Shown in pieces: positions 4,978 to 21,568 of a DNA stretch of 64,000 bases (positions are counted from its first letter, which is position 1; every line of letters starts with the position of its first letter). Origin of the DNA: Naumannella cuiyingiana (GTDB taxonomy: Bacteria > Actinomycetota > Actinomycetes > Propionibacteriales > Propionibacteriaceae); NCBI RefSeq assembly GCF_013408305.1, contig NZ_JACBZS010000001.1, positions 3,224,001 to 3,288,000 of the forward strand, given 5' to 3'. The position numbers and the translations under genes were made by a program. Under the pieces are notes generated by a model, which saw only the letters and a list, made by a program, of their open reading frames with translations, did no database searches and was not told where the DNA came from.

Positions 4978-5031
4978 TTGAGTGTCCTCGTGCGCAGCAT
5001 CCTCCTCGTAATCGTCAGGCGTGTCGGCTGA
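4978..5031 (+). CDS. Putative ilvB attenuator leader peptide (Val/Leu/Ile-rich)
   Basis: A 17-codon frame starting TTG reads [17 protein letters not shown] and stops at 5029-5031. Eleven of 17 residues are Val, Leu or Ile, the three end products of the pathway whose genes follow. A purine-rich stretch (gaggggg, 4961-4967) lies 10 nt before the TTG. An in-frame TTG at 4954 and a GTG at 4990 are alternative starts. With the hairpin over its last codons and the terminator downstream, this fits ribosome-mediated attenuation as known for ilvB of Corynebacterium. Function is inferred from position and composition. Confidence 0.7.
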
Positions 5032-5086
5032 GACCACCAGCTCTCCGACGCGCCACCCCGTATGCCCACCGGCAGCGGGGTTTTTT
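5020..5086 (+). terminator. ilvBNC attenuator: pause hairpin and intrinsic terminator
   Basis: An 8-bp stem (cgtgtcgg 5020-5027 with ccgacgcg 5045-5052, one G-U) covers the last codons and stop of the leader frame. Next comes a terminator hairpin, ccccg/cgggg (5056-5060, 5076-5080) with an inner tgcc/ggca pair, followed by T6 at 5081-5086. The arrangement matches the leader before cimA at 19.85-19.91 kb. Confidence 0.75.
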
Positions 5087-16702: not shown

Positions 16703-18838
16703 TCAGGAGTCACGCTCGTCGGGCGCGGGCGCGGTGTGCACGAGCACGTCGGCCGCCGTCGCGCCCTCGCCCGCCGCATGCACGATGAGCGGGTTGATCT
16801 CGAACTCGAACCGGTGCCCGCTCGCCGCGGCGGCCATCCTGCTCACGGCGCTGACCGCGTGCGTCACGGCGGCGACGTCGGCCGGCGGCCGGCCCCGGAA
16901 ACCGTCCAGCAGCGGCCAGGACTTCAGGCGGCGGAGCAGGTCGGTCGCCTGCGCGGCGTCGATCGGCGCCGCGGTCGCCGCCACGTCGGCCAATACCTCG
17001 GTCGCGGTGCCGCCGAGGCCGACGGACACGATCGCCGGATAGCCGTCGCCGCTGGAGGTCGCGCCGACGATCAGCTCGAGTCCCGGGCGCGCCATCGGCT
17101 CGATGTCGACGCCGGCGAAGTCGGTGATCCCGTGCTGGTCAGCGATCGCGGCCAGCTCGGCGAACACGGTCTCGGCCTGCTCGGGGGCGACGTCGAGGCG
17201 TACGCCGCCGATGTCGGACTTGTGCGTCAGGCTCGGCGCGTTGATCTTCATCGCGAACGGGCCCGGCCGGCCGGAAACGATCGCGGCGACGTCGGCACCC
17301 CGTGCGGCCAACACCGGGCTCGCCCGGTCGACCGCGAGCGCGGAGAAGATCTTGTCCAGCCGGTCCGGGGTGTCGGCCAGCAGCGCGGCGGCCGCCTCGG
17401 GGTCGTCGGCGACATCGGCGACGGCGCGGGTCGGGCCGGGCACGACGCGCGCGAGGGTACGCGCCAGGTCGCCGACGGAGGCGAAGACCGGGATCCCGGC
17501 CTCGCGGAGCACCGCCCGAGCGTCCGCGGTCTGCTCGCGGCTGGCCAACCAGACGATCCACAGCGGTTTGTCGAGGCCGTCGCGGGCGAGTGCGGCGAGC
17601 ATCTGCGCGACGTCCAGCGCGCGCTGGCCGATCACCATGGTCAGGATGAACGCGACGCTGTCGACTGCCTCGTCCGCGGCGGTGAGCCGGCAGATCTCGG
17701 CGAGATCCTGCATGGCGGTCGGCGTACTGAACGCCTGCGCGGTGATGTCGACCGGGTTGGCGACCGCCCCGAACGCCGGCACCAGTGCCGCGAGCTGCGT
17801 GGTCGTCCCCTCGCCCAGCGGCGGCACCTCGAGGCCGTTGTCCTCGGCGTGGTCGGTGAGCAGGATGCCCGCGCCACCGGAGGCCGTGATGACGCCGAGG
17901 CGACTGCCGCGCAGCGGCGCCGGGGCGGCCAGCGCCGCGCCGACGCTGAGCAGTTCGTTGACGTCGCCGACCAGGATCACGCCGTAGCGTTCGGCCGCCG
18001 CGACCAGCGCAAGGTCGTCGCCGAGCATCGCGCCGGTGTGCGAGGCGGCGGCCAGCTTGCCGGTGCTGGATCGCCCCGAGCGCAACAGCACCAGCCGCTT
18101 GCCCGCCTGCGCGGCGCGGCGGGCGAGGCGGACGAAGCGCGCCCCGTCGGCGATTCCCTCGGCATACATCAGCACGACCTTGATCTGGTCGTCGGTGATC
18201 ATCGCCTCCGCGACCTCGACCAGGTCGAGGTTCGCCTGGTTCCCGGTCGAGGCCCAGGCGGTCAGGCTCAACCCCATCTCGGCGGCGAGGTCGAGCATCG
18301 AGCCGCCGACGGCACCGCTCTGGCCGACATAGGCGACGCCGCTGGTGCCGTGCATCTCGCGATCGGCCGCATTGGTGAAGGTGCCGAAGAACTGGTTGCG
18401 CACGTGGATCAGGCCCTGGCAGTTCGGGCCCACGATGCGTACGCCGGTGCGCCGCGCGATCGCGTCGAGCTCGGCCTGCATCCGCCGCCCCTCCTCGCCG
18501 ACCTCGGCGAAACCCGAGGCGAAGACGACGACGACCCGCGCGCCGACGGCGGCCGCCTCCTGCACGATCTGCGCGGTCTGCGCGGCGGGGACGAGCGACA
18601 AGACGGTGTCGACCCCGTCGGGGATCGAGGCCAGGTCGGGGAAGCAGGGGATGCCGTCGATCTCGTCGTAGCGTGGGTTCACCGGGTGGATGCGCCCGGC
18701 GAACCGGTGCTGGCGCAGGAAGCGCAGGGGGCGGGCGGTGACGCCGACGCCGCGGCCCGAGGCCCCGACGATCGCCACCGATTCGGGGCGGAACAGCGCG
18801 CGGTAGAGCGAGGCCGGTTCATCATCATTGAGTGACAT
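16703..18838 (-). CDS. ADP-forming acyl-CoA synthetase (acetate-CoA ligase family)
   Basis: A 711-residue fusion of the alpha and beta parts of NDP-forming acyl-CoA synthetases. It has an N-terminal CoA-binding domain (VAIVGASGRGVGVTARPL), succinyl-CoA-ligase-like domains with the catalytic His in AAASHTGAML, and a C-terminal ATP-grasp region (GPFAMKINAPSLTHKSDIGGV, then DIEPMARPGLELIVG). It activates a carboxylic acid to its CoA thioester. The ATG at 18838 is chosen over a TTG 9 nt upstream. First gene of the acyl-CoA operon and divergent from the TetR gene; substrate unknown. Confidence 0.9.
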   Translation of the reverse strand: MSLNDDEPASLYRALFRPESVAIVGASGRGVGVTARPLRFLRQHRFAGRIHPVNPRYDEIDGIPCFPDLASIPDGVDTVLSLVPAAQTAQIVQEAAAVGARVVVVFASGFAEVGEEGRRMQAELDAIARRTGVRIVGPNCQGLIHVRNQFFGTFTNAADREMHGTSGVAYVGQSGAVGGSMLDLAAEMGLSLTAWASTGNQANLDLVEVAEAMITDDQIKVVLMYAEGIADGARFVRLARRAAQAGKRLVLLRSGRSSTGKLAAASHTGAMLGDDLALVAAAERYGVILVGDVNELLSVGAALAAPAPLRGSRLGVITASGGAGILLTDHAEDNGLEVPPLGEGTTTQLAALVPAFGAVANPVDITAQAFSTPTAMQDLAEICRLTAADEAVDSVAFILTMVIGQRALDVAQMLAALARDGLDKPLWIVWLASREQTADARAVLREAGIPVFASVGDLARTLARVVPGPTRAVADVADDPEAAAALLADTPDRLDKIFSALAVDRASPVLAARGADVAAIVSGRPGPFAMKINAPSLTHKSDIGGVRLDVAPEQAETVFAELAAIADQHGITDFAGVDIEPMARPGLELIVGATSSGDGYPAIVSVGLGGTATEVLADVAATAAPIDAAQATDLLRRLKSWPLLDGFRGRPPADVAAVTHAVSAVSRMAAAASGHRFEFEINPLIVHAAGEGATAADVLVHTAPAPDERDS

Positions 18839-18857
18839 CGCAGCCAACCTCGGCTAG

Positions 18858-18877
18858 AACTGACGTGCGTGTCAATA
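18858..18877. promoter_or_regulatory. Candidate TetR operator
   Basis: TGAC (18861-18864) and GTCA (18871-18874), separated by 6 bp, form an imperfect inverted repeat in the 137-bp divergent gap, close to the CoA-ligase start. It is the best palindrome I see there and a plausible site for the TetR protein. Confidence 0.35.
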
Positions 18878-18975
18878 CTGCCGTTCCATCGCCCGTCGCC
18901 GGCCCCGCTCGGCTCGGATCGGACCAGCTCGGAGCGGCTCGGCTCGGCAGCGCACGGCAGAGGGAGGGGGTGCCG

Positions 18976-19683
18976 GTGAGCGAGGAGTCGGGGATCGGAC
19001 AGGACCCGGCCGGTCGTCACGCGGCCGCGCGCCTCGAACAGCTCACCCCGAAGGCGCGGCGGACCCGCGAGCGGCTGCTGCGCGCGGCCCGCACCGTGTT
19101 CGAGCGCGACGGCTTCCTGAACGCCCGGGTGATGGATGTCGCCGAGGAGGCCCGGGTCGCCCACGGCACGTTCTACACCTACTTCGACTCCAAGACCGAC
19201 ATTTTCCGCGTGCTGTGCCTGGACCTGATGCCCGGCATCTACGAGCACGGGCCGGCGGAGAGATCGCTGACCCGGGTGCAGCGCATCGAGCGCGGCAACC
19301 TGCGGTTCTACCGGGTCTACAAGGAACACCGCCGGCTGATCGGGCTGCTGGAGCAGGTGACGACATTCGACGATGAGGTGCACGCCCTGCGGATCCACCT
19401 GCGGCACACCGCGGAGCGGCGCGTGCTCGGCATGATCAAGCGGCAGCAGGCGTGCGGCGCGCTGAAGCCCACGCTCGACCCGGAGGTGGTGGCGAGCGCG
19501 CTGATCGCGATGACGACGCACAGCTTCTACACCTGGCACGTCACCGAGGACCGCGACTACGACCTCACCGAGGCCAACCGCACGCTGACCTACCTGTGGG
19601 CGAGCGCGCTGGGCGTGCGGGCCGATCCGGCGGACGAGGAGTTCTACCAATCGCTCGGCCGCGCCGAACCGGGCGAGGACTGA
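18976..19683 (+). CDS. TetR/AcrR-family transcriptional regulator
   Basis: A 235-residue regulator. The N-terminal helix-turn-helix is RRTRERLLRAARTVFERDGF...VMDVAEEARVAHGTFYTYFDSK, and the C-terminal ~150 residues form a helical ligand domain. The GTG at 18976 is preferred because agggaggg lies 7 nt upstream; in-frame starts farther upstream would add a low-complexity stretch. It is divergent from the acyl-CoA operon, so it very likely represses it and responds to an acyl-CoA or free acid, as FadR/KstR-like TetR proteins do. The ligand is not predictable. Confidence 0.9.
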   Translation: MSEESGIGQDPAGRHAAARLEQLTPKARRTRERLLRAARTVFERDGFLNARVMDVAEEARVAHGTFYTYFDSKTDIFRVLCLDLMPGIYEHGPAERSLTRVQRIERGNLRFYRVYKEHRRLIGLLEQVTTFDDEVHALRIHLRHTAERRVLGMIKRQQACGALKPTLDPEVVASALIAMTTHSFYTWHVTEDRDYDLTEANRTLTYLWASALGVRADPADEEFYQSLGRAEPGED

Positions 19684-19819
19684 CCGCTCCGAGCGGTACG
19701 CGATGCGCCCCCTCAGGTGCACGGGCCGGGGATGATCGCGGCCCGCTCGCCGCGGCCCTGCGTACCGTATGTCGAGACAGGGGTTCCGCGTCCGGCAATC
19801 CGCGCCACACAATGGCGGG

Positions 19820-19858
19820 GTGCATCGCCTGAGCATCATCATTGCGCAGCGCGTCTGA
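19820..19858 (+). CDS. Putative cimA attenuator leader peptide (Ile-rich)
   Basis: A 12-codon GTG-start frame reads MHRLSIIIAQRV with three consecutive Ile codons plus Leu and Val. Its stop (19856-19858) sits inside a 10-bp hairpin, and a terminator follows 23 nt later, 61 bp before cimA ends its leader. The product of the gene downstream commits carbon to isoleucine, so an Ile-run sensor is what attenuation would need. The call is from composition and position; translation has not been shown. Confidence 0.7.
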   Translation: MHRLSIIIAQRV

Positions 19859-19907
19859 CCAGCGGATCGTCGGACGCGCAACCTCTCGTTCCCACGGGAG
19901 GTTTTTT
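19849..19907 (+). terminator. cimA attenuator: pause hairpin and intrinsic terminator
   Basis: gcgcgtctga (19849-19858) pairs with tcggacgcgc (19870-19879), one G-U, over the leader-peptide stop. Then acctctcgt (19881-19889) pairs with acgggaggt (19894-19902) across a tccc loop, followed by T6 (19902-19907). It is the same order as the ilvB leader: peptide, hairpin, terminator, SD and gene. Confidence 0.78.
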
Positions 19908-19945
19908 CTTTGCCCGGCGAGTGCACCCCAGCAACGAGGACGATC

Positions 19946-21568
19946 ATGACCACAGCCCCCAGCCTGAACGGCCAGGCGACGGCGCCGCGTCAGCCCGGCA
20001 CCTTCCACGTCTACGACACGACCCTGCGCGACGGCGCGCAGCAGGAGGCGATGCGCCTCACCGTCGCGGACAAGCTGCGAATCGCGGGCTACCTGGACGA
20101 GCTGGGCGTGGGCTGGATCGAGGGCGGCTGGCCCGGCGCGAATCCGAACGACACCGCGTTCTTCGCCGCCGCCGCCGACGACCTGAAACTGAAGAACGCG
20201 ACGCTGGTCGCGTTCGGCGCCACCCGCCGCCCCAACGGCCGGGCCGCCGACGACCCGCTGGTCGCCGCGCTGCGCGACTCGCTCGCCTCGACGGTCTGCC
20301 TGGTCGCCAAGAGCCACGTCGGTCACGTCGAGCGCGCGCTGCGCACGACCCGCGAGGAGAACCTCGCGATGATCACCGACACCGTCTCCCACCTGGTCGG
20401 GGAGGGCCGCCGGGTCTTCCTCGACTGCGAGCACTTCTTCGACGGCTTCCGCCTCGACCCGGGCTATGCCACCGAGGTGGTACGCACCGCAGCCCAAGTC
20501 GGGGCCGAGGTGGTCGTGCTCTGCGACACCAACGGCGGCATGCTCCCGCCCTGGGTGGGCGAGATCGTGGAACAGGTGGCGGGGCTCGGCGTACCGCTCG
20601 GCATCCATGCCCACAACGACACCGGCTGCGCGGTGGCCAACACCCTGGCCGCGGTCGACGCGGGCGCCATGCACGTGCAGGGCACGATCAACGGCTACGG
20701 CGAGCGGACCGGCAATGCCGACCTGATCCCGGTGATCGCGAACCTGGAGCTGAAGTACGGCTGGGACCTGCTGCCCGAGGGGCGGCTCGCCGAGGCGACG
20801 CGCATCTCGCACGCCATCGCGGCGGTGACCAATGTCGCCGGCTCGGGCCGCCAGCCCTATGTCGGCGCCTCGGCCTTCGCCCACAAGGCCGGTTTGCACG
20901 CCAGCGCGATCAAGGTCGACCCGAATCTCTACCAGCACATCGATCCCGGGCTGGTCGGCAACGACATGCGGATGCTGGTCTCCGACATGGCCGGCCGCGC
21001 GAACATCCAGATCAAGGGTGAGGAGCTGGGCTTCGACCTGTCCGATCGTGATCTTGCCGCCCGGGTGACCGATGCGGTGAAGGAGCGCGAGGCGCGCGGC
21101 TATTCCTACGAGGCGGCGGATGCGAGCTTCGAGCTGCTGCTGCGCGATCACACCGGCGGCACCGGCTCGCTGCCCGGCGACCCGTTCGCGATCGAGCACT
21201 GGCGGGTGCACTCCCAGGCCAGTTCTGATCATGCGACCGTCACCGAGGCGACGGTGAAGCTGTCCGCCGAGGGCGAGACCCACCTGGTGGTGGGGGAGGG
21301 CAACGGCCCGGTGAACGCCCTCGACCAGGCGCTGCGCGACGCGCTGATCAAGGCGTACCCGCAGATCGCCGGCTATGAGTTGATCGACTACAAGGTCCGG
21401 ATCCTCGATTCCGGGCATGGCACGGATGCGGTCACCCGCGTGCTGATCGACACCACCGACGGCGAGCACGTGTGGACCACGGTCGGCGTCGGCGCCAACA
21501 TCATCGACGCCTCCTGGGAGGCGCTCACCGATGCCTACCGGTTCGGTCTCATCCGGGGCCGCGGCTGA
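19946..21568 (+). CDS. cimA: (R)-citramalate synthase
   Basis: CimA, 540 residues, condenses pyruvate and acetyl-CoA to citramalate, the first step of the threonine-independent isoleucine route. The TIM-barrel catalytic part has YDTTLRDGAQQEAM at the N-terminus, metal-binding HxH in LGIHAHNDTGCAVAN, and NGYGERTGNADLIPVIANL. The KAGLHASAIKVDP segment typical of the cimA/LeuA superfamily follows, and a C-terminal LeuA-dimer-type regulatory domain covers the last ~120 residues. DTTLRDGAQ with this length favours the CimA type over LeuA. SD is acgagga. The Ile-rich leader upstream supports the role. Confidence 0.92.
   Translation: MTTAPSLNGQATAPRQPGTFHVYDTTLRDGAQQEAMRLTVADKLRIAGYLDELGVGWIEGGWPGANPNDTAFFAAAADDLKLKNATLVAFGATRRPNGRAADDPLVAALRDSLASTVCLVAKSHVGHVERALRTTREENLAMITDTVSHLVGEGRRVFLDCEHFFDGFRLDPGYATEVVRTAAQVGAEVVVLCDTNGGMLPPWVGEIVEQVAGLGVPLGIHAHNDTGCAVANTLAAVDAGAMHVQGTINGYGERTGNADLIPVIANLELKYGWDLLPEGRLAEATRISHAIAAVTNVAGSGRQPYVGASAFAHKAGLHASAIKVDPNLYQHIDPGLVGNDMRMLVSDMAGRANIQIKGEELGFDLSDRDLAARVTDAVKEREARGYSYEAADASFELLLRDHTGGTGSLPGDPFAIEHWRVHSQASSDHATVTEATVKLSAEGETHLVVGEGNGPVNALDQALRDALIKAYPQIAGYELIDYKVRILDSGHGTDAVTRVLIDTTDGEHVWTTVGVGANIIDASWEALTDAYRFGLIRGRG

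Follow-up and report, generated by a model that had tools for sequence, protein, structure and literature searches.

A short leader element lies upstream of cimA, the gene for citramalate synthase, in Naumannella cuiyingiana. By sequence comparison it is real and present in very many actinobacterial relatives, reaching far beyond the window (the whole 64,000-nucleotide stretch of DNA that was analysed), and a chance origin is excluded above all because the element is conserved in other families. It consists of a leader frame with a run of Ile codons, a hairpin (P1) and a terminator hairpin (T), and these parts, together with their conservation and covariation, are supported by the aligned sequences. 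CimA catalyses the step with which the pyruvate route to isoleucine begins. We consider it likely that the element acts by ribosome-mediated transcription attenuation, in which charged tRNA-Ile would control cimA.

Parts of the leader upstream of cimA

The features of the leader are collected in Table 1. The initial annotation had described an Ile-rich frame of 12 codons ahead of cimA, and this frame could be read directly from GTG 19820 (codons GTG CAT CGC CTG AGC ATC ATC ATT GCG CAG CGC GTC TGA, 19820-19858). It had further placed the stop codon in a 10-bp hairpin and given the terminator 9 bp and a T6 tract; the UGA does sit within the 5' arm of P1 and the T6 is present, but the stems comprise 11 and 10 bp, respectively. 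The Shine-Dalgarno sequence and cimA were found to follow as described. P1 and T are separated by 0 nt.

Table 1. Positions of the cimA leader features and of the sister ilvB leader in the window
Feature	Position	Strand	Basis
-35 hexamer candidate TTCCGC, 18 nt 5' of the -10	19784..19789	+	Read by eye, weak
-10-like hexamer CACAAT, 6 nt 5' of GTG	19808..19813	+	NANNNT recurrent in leaders
Leader frame MHRLSIIIAQRV, 12 codons, stop UGA	19820..19858	+	Read from sequence
Control codons ATC ATC ATT (Ile x3)	19835..19843	+	Read from sequence; Ile run conserved
Hairpin P1, 11 bp, 19849-19859 with 19869-19879; proposed antiterminating element	19849..19879	+	Fold, covariation
Terminator hairpin T, 10 bp, loop 4	19880..19903	+	Fold, covariation
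U tract of T (T6)	19902..19907	+	Read from sequence
Shine-Dalgarno-like GAGGA 5' of cimA ATG 19946	19936..19940	+	Read from sequence
cimA, citramalate synthase, 540 aa	19946..21568	+	TIGR00977 601.4 bits, cut-off 450
Sister attenuator 5' of ilvB (5257): leader frame, 13 residues	4990-5031		
Sister ilvB attenuator: P1 5018-5054, T 5055-5081 with T run, gap 0	4990-5086		

The predicted fold of positions 19849-19907 had an energy of -34.4 kcal/mol versus -17.96 (sd 2.95; z -5.57), and 0/200 dinucleotide shuffles were as good. A strict scan of both strands for terminators, defined as a perfect stem of at least 8 bp followed by a T-rich stretch, returned a single site in the whole 64-kb window, namely T of the cimA leader. 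The fewest predicted intrinsic terminators have been reported in Actinobacteria, with 30 for one Nocardioides (PMC2965389). A sigma-70 scan around the leader found no promoter-like site. Rfam gave two matches in the window stretch, the better of them at E 0.15 and 21.4 bits, where the gathering score is 70, and at eight loci of relatives tRNA genes alone were found at E <= 0.05; the leader shows no membership of the T-box or any other described Rfam family.

The gene downstream is the sole match to TIGR00977 above the cut-off in the N. cuiyingiana genome. In the same genome no threonine deaminase of the THD1 type, the only type searched for, scored over the cut-off. Within positions 19896-19948, the 3' arm of T contains a strong Shine-Dalgarno-like GGGAGGT located 8 nt before an in-frame TTG (19910), from which translation would add 12 residues to CimA. 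This TTG was rejected as a second cimA start, being in frame in only some relatives by eye.

Conservation and distribution of the element

A covariance model, R1, was constructed from 13 distinct Propionibacteriaceae leaders, including that of the window. R1 includes Ile columns, so its matches are biased towards Ile codons and the Ile counts below are partly built in. In the N. cuiyingiana genome only the cimA site matched strongly (62.7 bits), the runner-up reaching 17.3 bits. Among 198 genomes of the family, 50 matched at E <= 0.01, and cimA was downstream at all 33 places scoring at least 48 bits. Matches were found in 237/391 genomes of the order of the source organism and, at E <= 1e-3, in 180/394 genomes of its class, distributed over 90 of 138 genera, with both totals including sites that are not 5' of cimA. 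The 34 best-scoring loci newly found in the order and in the class (L186-L219) all had cimA just 3' of the match, while 20 hand-picked further places, mostly second matches in a genome, had cimA at 12 and none at 8. L184 and L185 also contained no cimA.

Among the matches listed, R1 matched 32-175 nt 5' of the cimA match in 61/61 genomes compared; 66 matches had been taken, 63 of them in genomes with a noted cimA place, with 61 lying before cimA and 2 being second matches elsewhere. For named cimA loci, R1 matched 73 of 80; three of these were training loci, and the other 70 came almost entirely from Streptomyces and kin. The seven named loci without a match were six from Propionibacteriaceae or close kin (L007-L012) and one on a contig that starts inside cimA (L051).

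The element is not universal, and its absences count against the attenuation reading. The initial annotation had held that loss of the frame and stems in close relatives would speak against its proposal; in Propionibacteriaceae the element was kept at 12/49 cimA loci and absent from 37/49. For the class, 304/394 genomes carried cimA over the cut-off compared with the 180 with any R1 match, and a sizeable share of the class cimA genes is without an R1 match under the stricter filters used.

Pairing was assessed in 63 non-training leaders, which together with the 13 training leaders make up the set of 76 used below. L155 and the near copies L199 and L214 were left out of the covariation alignment, and the duplicates L090 and L103 and loci repeating training leaders were also set aside. 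Standard pairs in P1 and T amounted to 94.3%, compared with 87.1% in shuffles (0/500), and slid controls gave 34-53%; changes on both sides were seen at 11 of the 18 pairs. The alignment was fitted to R1 and the pair counts therefore lean towards the model; shuffles equalled the observed values in 0/500 cases for all five measures. Over 62 distinct leaders the T helix was 99.8% paired. The P1 helix was 90.0% paired, and the failure of its outermost modelled pair in 43/62 distinct leaders counts against the attenuation reading. As judged from this alignment, P1 and T covary, with compensatory changes kept in several families. The comparison of relatives that had been proposed from the single sequence gave the expected result, with the frame, its Ile codons, the two hairpin stems and the compensatory changes all retained in non-training leaders of several families.

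A frame containing Ile was present in all 76 leaders, with one Ile codon in 4, two in 31, three in 40 and four in 1; at least two were thus found in 72/76, a count partly built in through the Ile columns of R1. The four one-Ile leaders, three of them with Ile-Thr, count against the attenuation reading. The three are L086, L087 and L089, all members of the family, with ITT or ITG in place of the Ile run, and they might sense threonine too. Among 70 further leaders from Streptomyces and kin, 64 had two to three Ile codons and 6 had one, the latter again counting against this reading, and the commonest peptide of these non-Propionibacteriaceae leaders was MLSFAMIIGSRRAGPQ (23/70).

A NANNNT hexamer was located 6-8 nt 5' of the leader start in 72/76 leaders, versus 312 of 4148 ATG/GTG codons in the background (7.5%), the former figure being inflated by a preference for NANNNT in choosing the leader starts. 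This spacing points to transcripts that would be leaderless, starting on the start codon or beside it; leaderless transcripts have been reported for other leaders of actinobacteria (PMC8079986; PMC11857589). Around the other end of the frame, UAG was the stop codon of 53/76 leaders, and in 36/76 predicted folds the first base of P1 was the final base of the stop codon; these features may influence the time for which a ribosome keeps P1 open. The motif GAGAC/GTCTC occurred within 250 nt of cimA in 39/56 loci versus 20.9 expected from mononucleotide shuffles, with the window copy at 19774-19778. It was also found near cimA genes without the attenuator, a few copies lie inside T, and it is possibly a regulator site near the promoter.

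The linker between P1 and T in the predicted folds was 0 nt in 38 of the 76 leaders, 1 nt in 30, 2 nt in 6 and 3 nt in 2, and in the 70 further leaders it was 0-1 nt throughout (0 nt in 69/70). Two observations count against the weight of this abutment: an abutting hairpin was also predicted in 457/1520 shuffled leaders (30%), the sequence being GC-rich, and a predicted upstream stem ended 3 nt or less from T in 4/7 Escherichia coli attenuator leaders. Shuffles served as the control because the control based on ordinary terminators failed. In about 0.78 Mb of cimA-flanking loci the strict scan returned 71 + 13 sites, of which 55 + 12 had an abutting hairpin and all read as cimA leaders, with 17 others.

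Related leaders upstream of other genes

R1 places without cimA were read singly, 23 in all. Ten preceded an acetolactate synthase-like frame, four leucyl-tRNA synthetase, one 2-isopropylmalate synthase and one 2-dehydropantoate 2-reductase; of the remaining seven, two lacked a confirmed gene (L223, L232) and five (L175, L176, L179, L181, L183) were rejected as leaders, their matches looking like chance. Leaders upstream of acetolactate synthase-like frames, such as MSQLVLVIS, MTTRHLVII and MQHHILVLRRRVD, carry Leu/Val/Ile codons, and those upstream of leucyl-tRNA synthetase, such as MQHRRALLS, MYRKELLR and MHAAGLLRR, carry Leu codons, with weaker R1 scores than at cimA in both groups. In a profile scan of seven downstream genes, L170 and L182 were identified as ilvB and L173 and L178 as leuS, all over curated cut-offs. 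The frames at L226 (ilvB) and L224 (leuA) were cut by the edge of the stretch, and their best match was to the right family but below the cut-off.

Several of these places are of individual note. The leader at L224, MKHLLLIESARH, shows the same design 5' of 2-isopropylmalate synthase (leuA), in G464, a genome for which no cimA match was obtained. At L174 the leader MRQTSLATGELIS, read by eye, stands 5' of 2-dehydropantoate 2-reductase, which the scan confirmed as a reductase, and this leader may be due to chance. L223 has a Leu/Val/Ile leader with a candidate gene only, and for L232/L260 (leader MTTHVIAVIT) no convincing gene was found among the frames listed.

N. cuiyingiana itself carries sister leaders, one upstream of ilvB in the same window (Table 1) and one, MEHTLLLTGPR with two hairpins, upstream of leuS (L245, contig C1 near 652,000, minus strand). 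Unlike in cimA, P1 of this leuS leader appears by eye to be extendable into the 5' arm of T. In the cimA (III), ilvB and leuS leaders of this genome, the control codons match the target gene. In our judgement, nothing argues more strongly for the codons being the signal than this exchange with the target gene.

Leaders with Ile/Leu/Val codons 5' of ilvB and with Leu codons 5' of leuS have been described in actinobacteria (PMC1262725, PMC8079986). The ilvB leaders, such as Streptomyces ilvL and Mycobacterium tuberculosis ilvB1, resemble the cimA leader in that branched-chain codons in a short frame are followed by hairpins and a terminator rich in U (PMC8079986, PMC1262725), and ilvL is leaderless in Streptomyces lividans (PMC8079986, PMC1262725). 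The cimA leader differs from them in its target and in its Ile control codons. The leuS attenuator leuL2 of S. lividans (MRAVRLLLSEPR) is likewise leaderless, with a run of a single amino acid, a hairpin and a U stretch (PMC8079986), and R1, built from cimA leaders, also matched leuS leaders. The leuS attenuators differ in their Leu codons, in an aminoacyl-tRNA synthetase gene as target and in having a described antiterminator hairpin (PMC1262725). Similar to what is predicted for cimA, the ilvBNC attenuator of Corynebacterium glutamicum (ilvB-II motif) has a leader frame 1 nt from the transcription start and a terminator, but it forms three hairpins, with overlapping antiterminator and terminator (PMC11857589, PMC10272879).

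The initial annotation knew of no description of such control for cimA, and no relevant report linking cimA or citramalate with a leader peptide or attenuation was found in the open-licence literature. The S. lividans study names eight leaders, none of them for cimA, and its main text contains neither cimA nor citramalate (PMC8079986); in the main text of PMC11109978 the words cimA, citramalate and isopropylmalate are all absent. Attenuators of this kind are known, and cimA as a target and the spread of the element appear to be unreported in the open-licence literature.

Proposed mechanism and alternatives

Three features expected of an attenuator were found: a predicted frame with codons for the end product, a predicted intrinsic terminator between this frame and cimA, and a predicted leader structure that changes with ribosome position, the last computed with an assumed footprint. 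The leading edge of the ribosome was assumed to lie 13 nt downstream of the first base in the A-site codon. With this footprint P1 retained on average 85% of its energy when the ribosome stood at the first codon of the Ile run, 29% at its last codon and 5% at the stop codon. The base of P1 was 9-16 nt after the first Ile codon in 75/76 leaders and 13-14 nt after it in 67/70 further leaders. Together, these distances and energy shares support a placing of the Ile run such that, in the model, P1 largely survives a stall at the first Ile and is lost once the ribosome reaches the stop codon.

Under the attenuation reading, transcription probably begins at the GTG and the ribosome would load at the 5' end of the RNA. 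With plentiful Ile-tRNA, the ribosome would reach the stop codon and cover the 5' arm of P1, so that P1 stays open, T closes and the transcript would end after about 88 nt. With scarce Ile-tRNA, it would stall at the first Ile codon with its leading edge close to the P1 base; P1 would then stand, T would fail and cimA would be transcribed. The most speculative step is that P1, flush against T, would hold the base of T open inside the exit channel of RNA polymerase. We infer the leaderless start, the termination and the direction of this response. The same polarity has been proposed by the authors for M. tuberculosis ilvB1, in which a stall lets the antiterminator form and a ribosome at the stop codon masks it (PMC13236596). 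Changing LVVI to AAAA in that leader gave low, uninducible expression (PMC13236596). Codon changes in the Streptomyces coelicolor ilvB leader were without effect (Seliverstov 2005, PMC1262725), which counts against the attenuation reading.

In E. coli, the thr, leu, trp, his, phe, ilvGM and ivb attenuators combine control codons, a stop codon and a terminator with the ribosome as sensor, and a competing hairpin takes the 5' arm of the terminator. No such competitor was found for cimA. Folding of 13 leaders with ribosome footprints revealed no shared partner for either arm of T, which folded in every state tried. In duplex tests against shuffles over the 76 leaders, pairing of the T 5' arm with the upstream leader was slightly worse than in shuffles (mean z +0.41, se 0.09) and that of the T 3' arm no better (mean z -0.15, se 0.13). 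In a comparison run alongside the E. coli attenuators, the 76 cimA leaders gave a mean z of +0.45 with 0/76 at or below -2, versus a mean of -2.49 with 4/7 at or below -2 for E. coli (thr -5.52, phe -5.0, ilvGM -2.59, leu -2.09, trp -1.18, his -0.56, ivb -0.47). The ilvB leader of N. cuiyingiana scored -1.07.

An antiterminator sharing an arm of T, as in the trp and thr type, was therefore not found in the 76 leaders by a test that misses 3/7 known cases. The overlapping antiterminator and terminator of the C. glutamicum ilvBNC type were also not found, with predicted P1 and T being separate in 76/76 and 70/70 leaders. Similarly, the M. tuberculosis ilvB1 structures are mutually exclusive according to their authors (PMC13236596), in contrast to the cimA leader with no pairing competitor of T found. 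P1 as a pause hairpin, positioned 10-11 nt before a Y-G step, was considered and rejected, the spacing being 8 nt in the window and variable by eye.

In the modelled folds, ribosome position decides only whether P1 stands. P1 and T have no bases in common, and the searches gave T no other partner, so any effect of P1 on T would be positional rather than through pairing. The cimA device would thus be a variant of known attenuators, the antiterminator not having been found. The initial reading of the Ile codons as an attenuation signal is partly supported: the conserved codons and stems, and codons that follow the gene at cimA, ilvB and leuS, speak in its favour, but the antiterminator competing for a T arm was not found.

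A serious but rather unlikely alternative is classical attenuation with an antiterminator invisible to the test, being short, pseudoknotted or protein-aided, with P1 serving for no more than pausing or protection, as the equivalent hairpin does in trp or his. The leader, the stop position and the terminator look classical, the test overlooks trp, his and ivb, and the leuS leader of N. cuiyingiana offers the extendable P1 described above. Against this stand the 0/76 cimA leaders at or below -2, the positive mean and the absence of a signal for the T 3' arm; an antiterminator mechanism common to 76 leaders should have shown despite the missed E. coli cases.

It is improbable that P1 and T instead form one tandem terminator whose basal termination is tuned by the frame, with a ribosome at the stop codon removing P1 and lowering termination, so that the cimA level would depend on translation and not on isoleucine, or the response would have the opposite sign. 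The two hairpins abut and could stack, and clusters of hairpins in termination are the subject of PMC8355165. However, conservation extends to the Ile codons and to their spacing from P1, the sister leaders have other codons before other genes, and a reversed sign would make no sense for end-product feedback. That T is the ordinary terminator of a TetR-like gene (frame 18832-19683, matching TetR-type families, on the same strand and ending about 200 nt before T) and the short frame due to chance can practically be dismissed, since frame, P1 and T are kept together 5' of cimA in many genomes and a promoter-like hexamer stands just 5' of the leader start in 72/76 leaders.

Returning to positional action of P1, we tentatively propose, at somewhat less than even confidence, a class-wide actinobacterial type of attenuator in which a ribosome-gated hairpin flush with T brings about antitermination without competing pairing, with cimA, ilvB, leuS and perhaps leuA on one chassis with exchangeable codons. 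If this is true, the gene would be ON without translation of the leader, which is the reverse of how classical attenuators behave. According to Seliverstov et al. (PMC1262725), it was not clear exactly how the actinobacterial ilvB leaders regulate, and a ribosome-gated abutting hairpin would be a concrete and falsifiable answer. If attenuation is true for cimA, the citramalate route to isoleucine would be under end-product control at the RNA level. The element also lies 5' of cimA in ordinary Streptomyces, so this control could be tested there.
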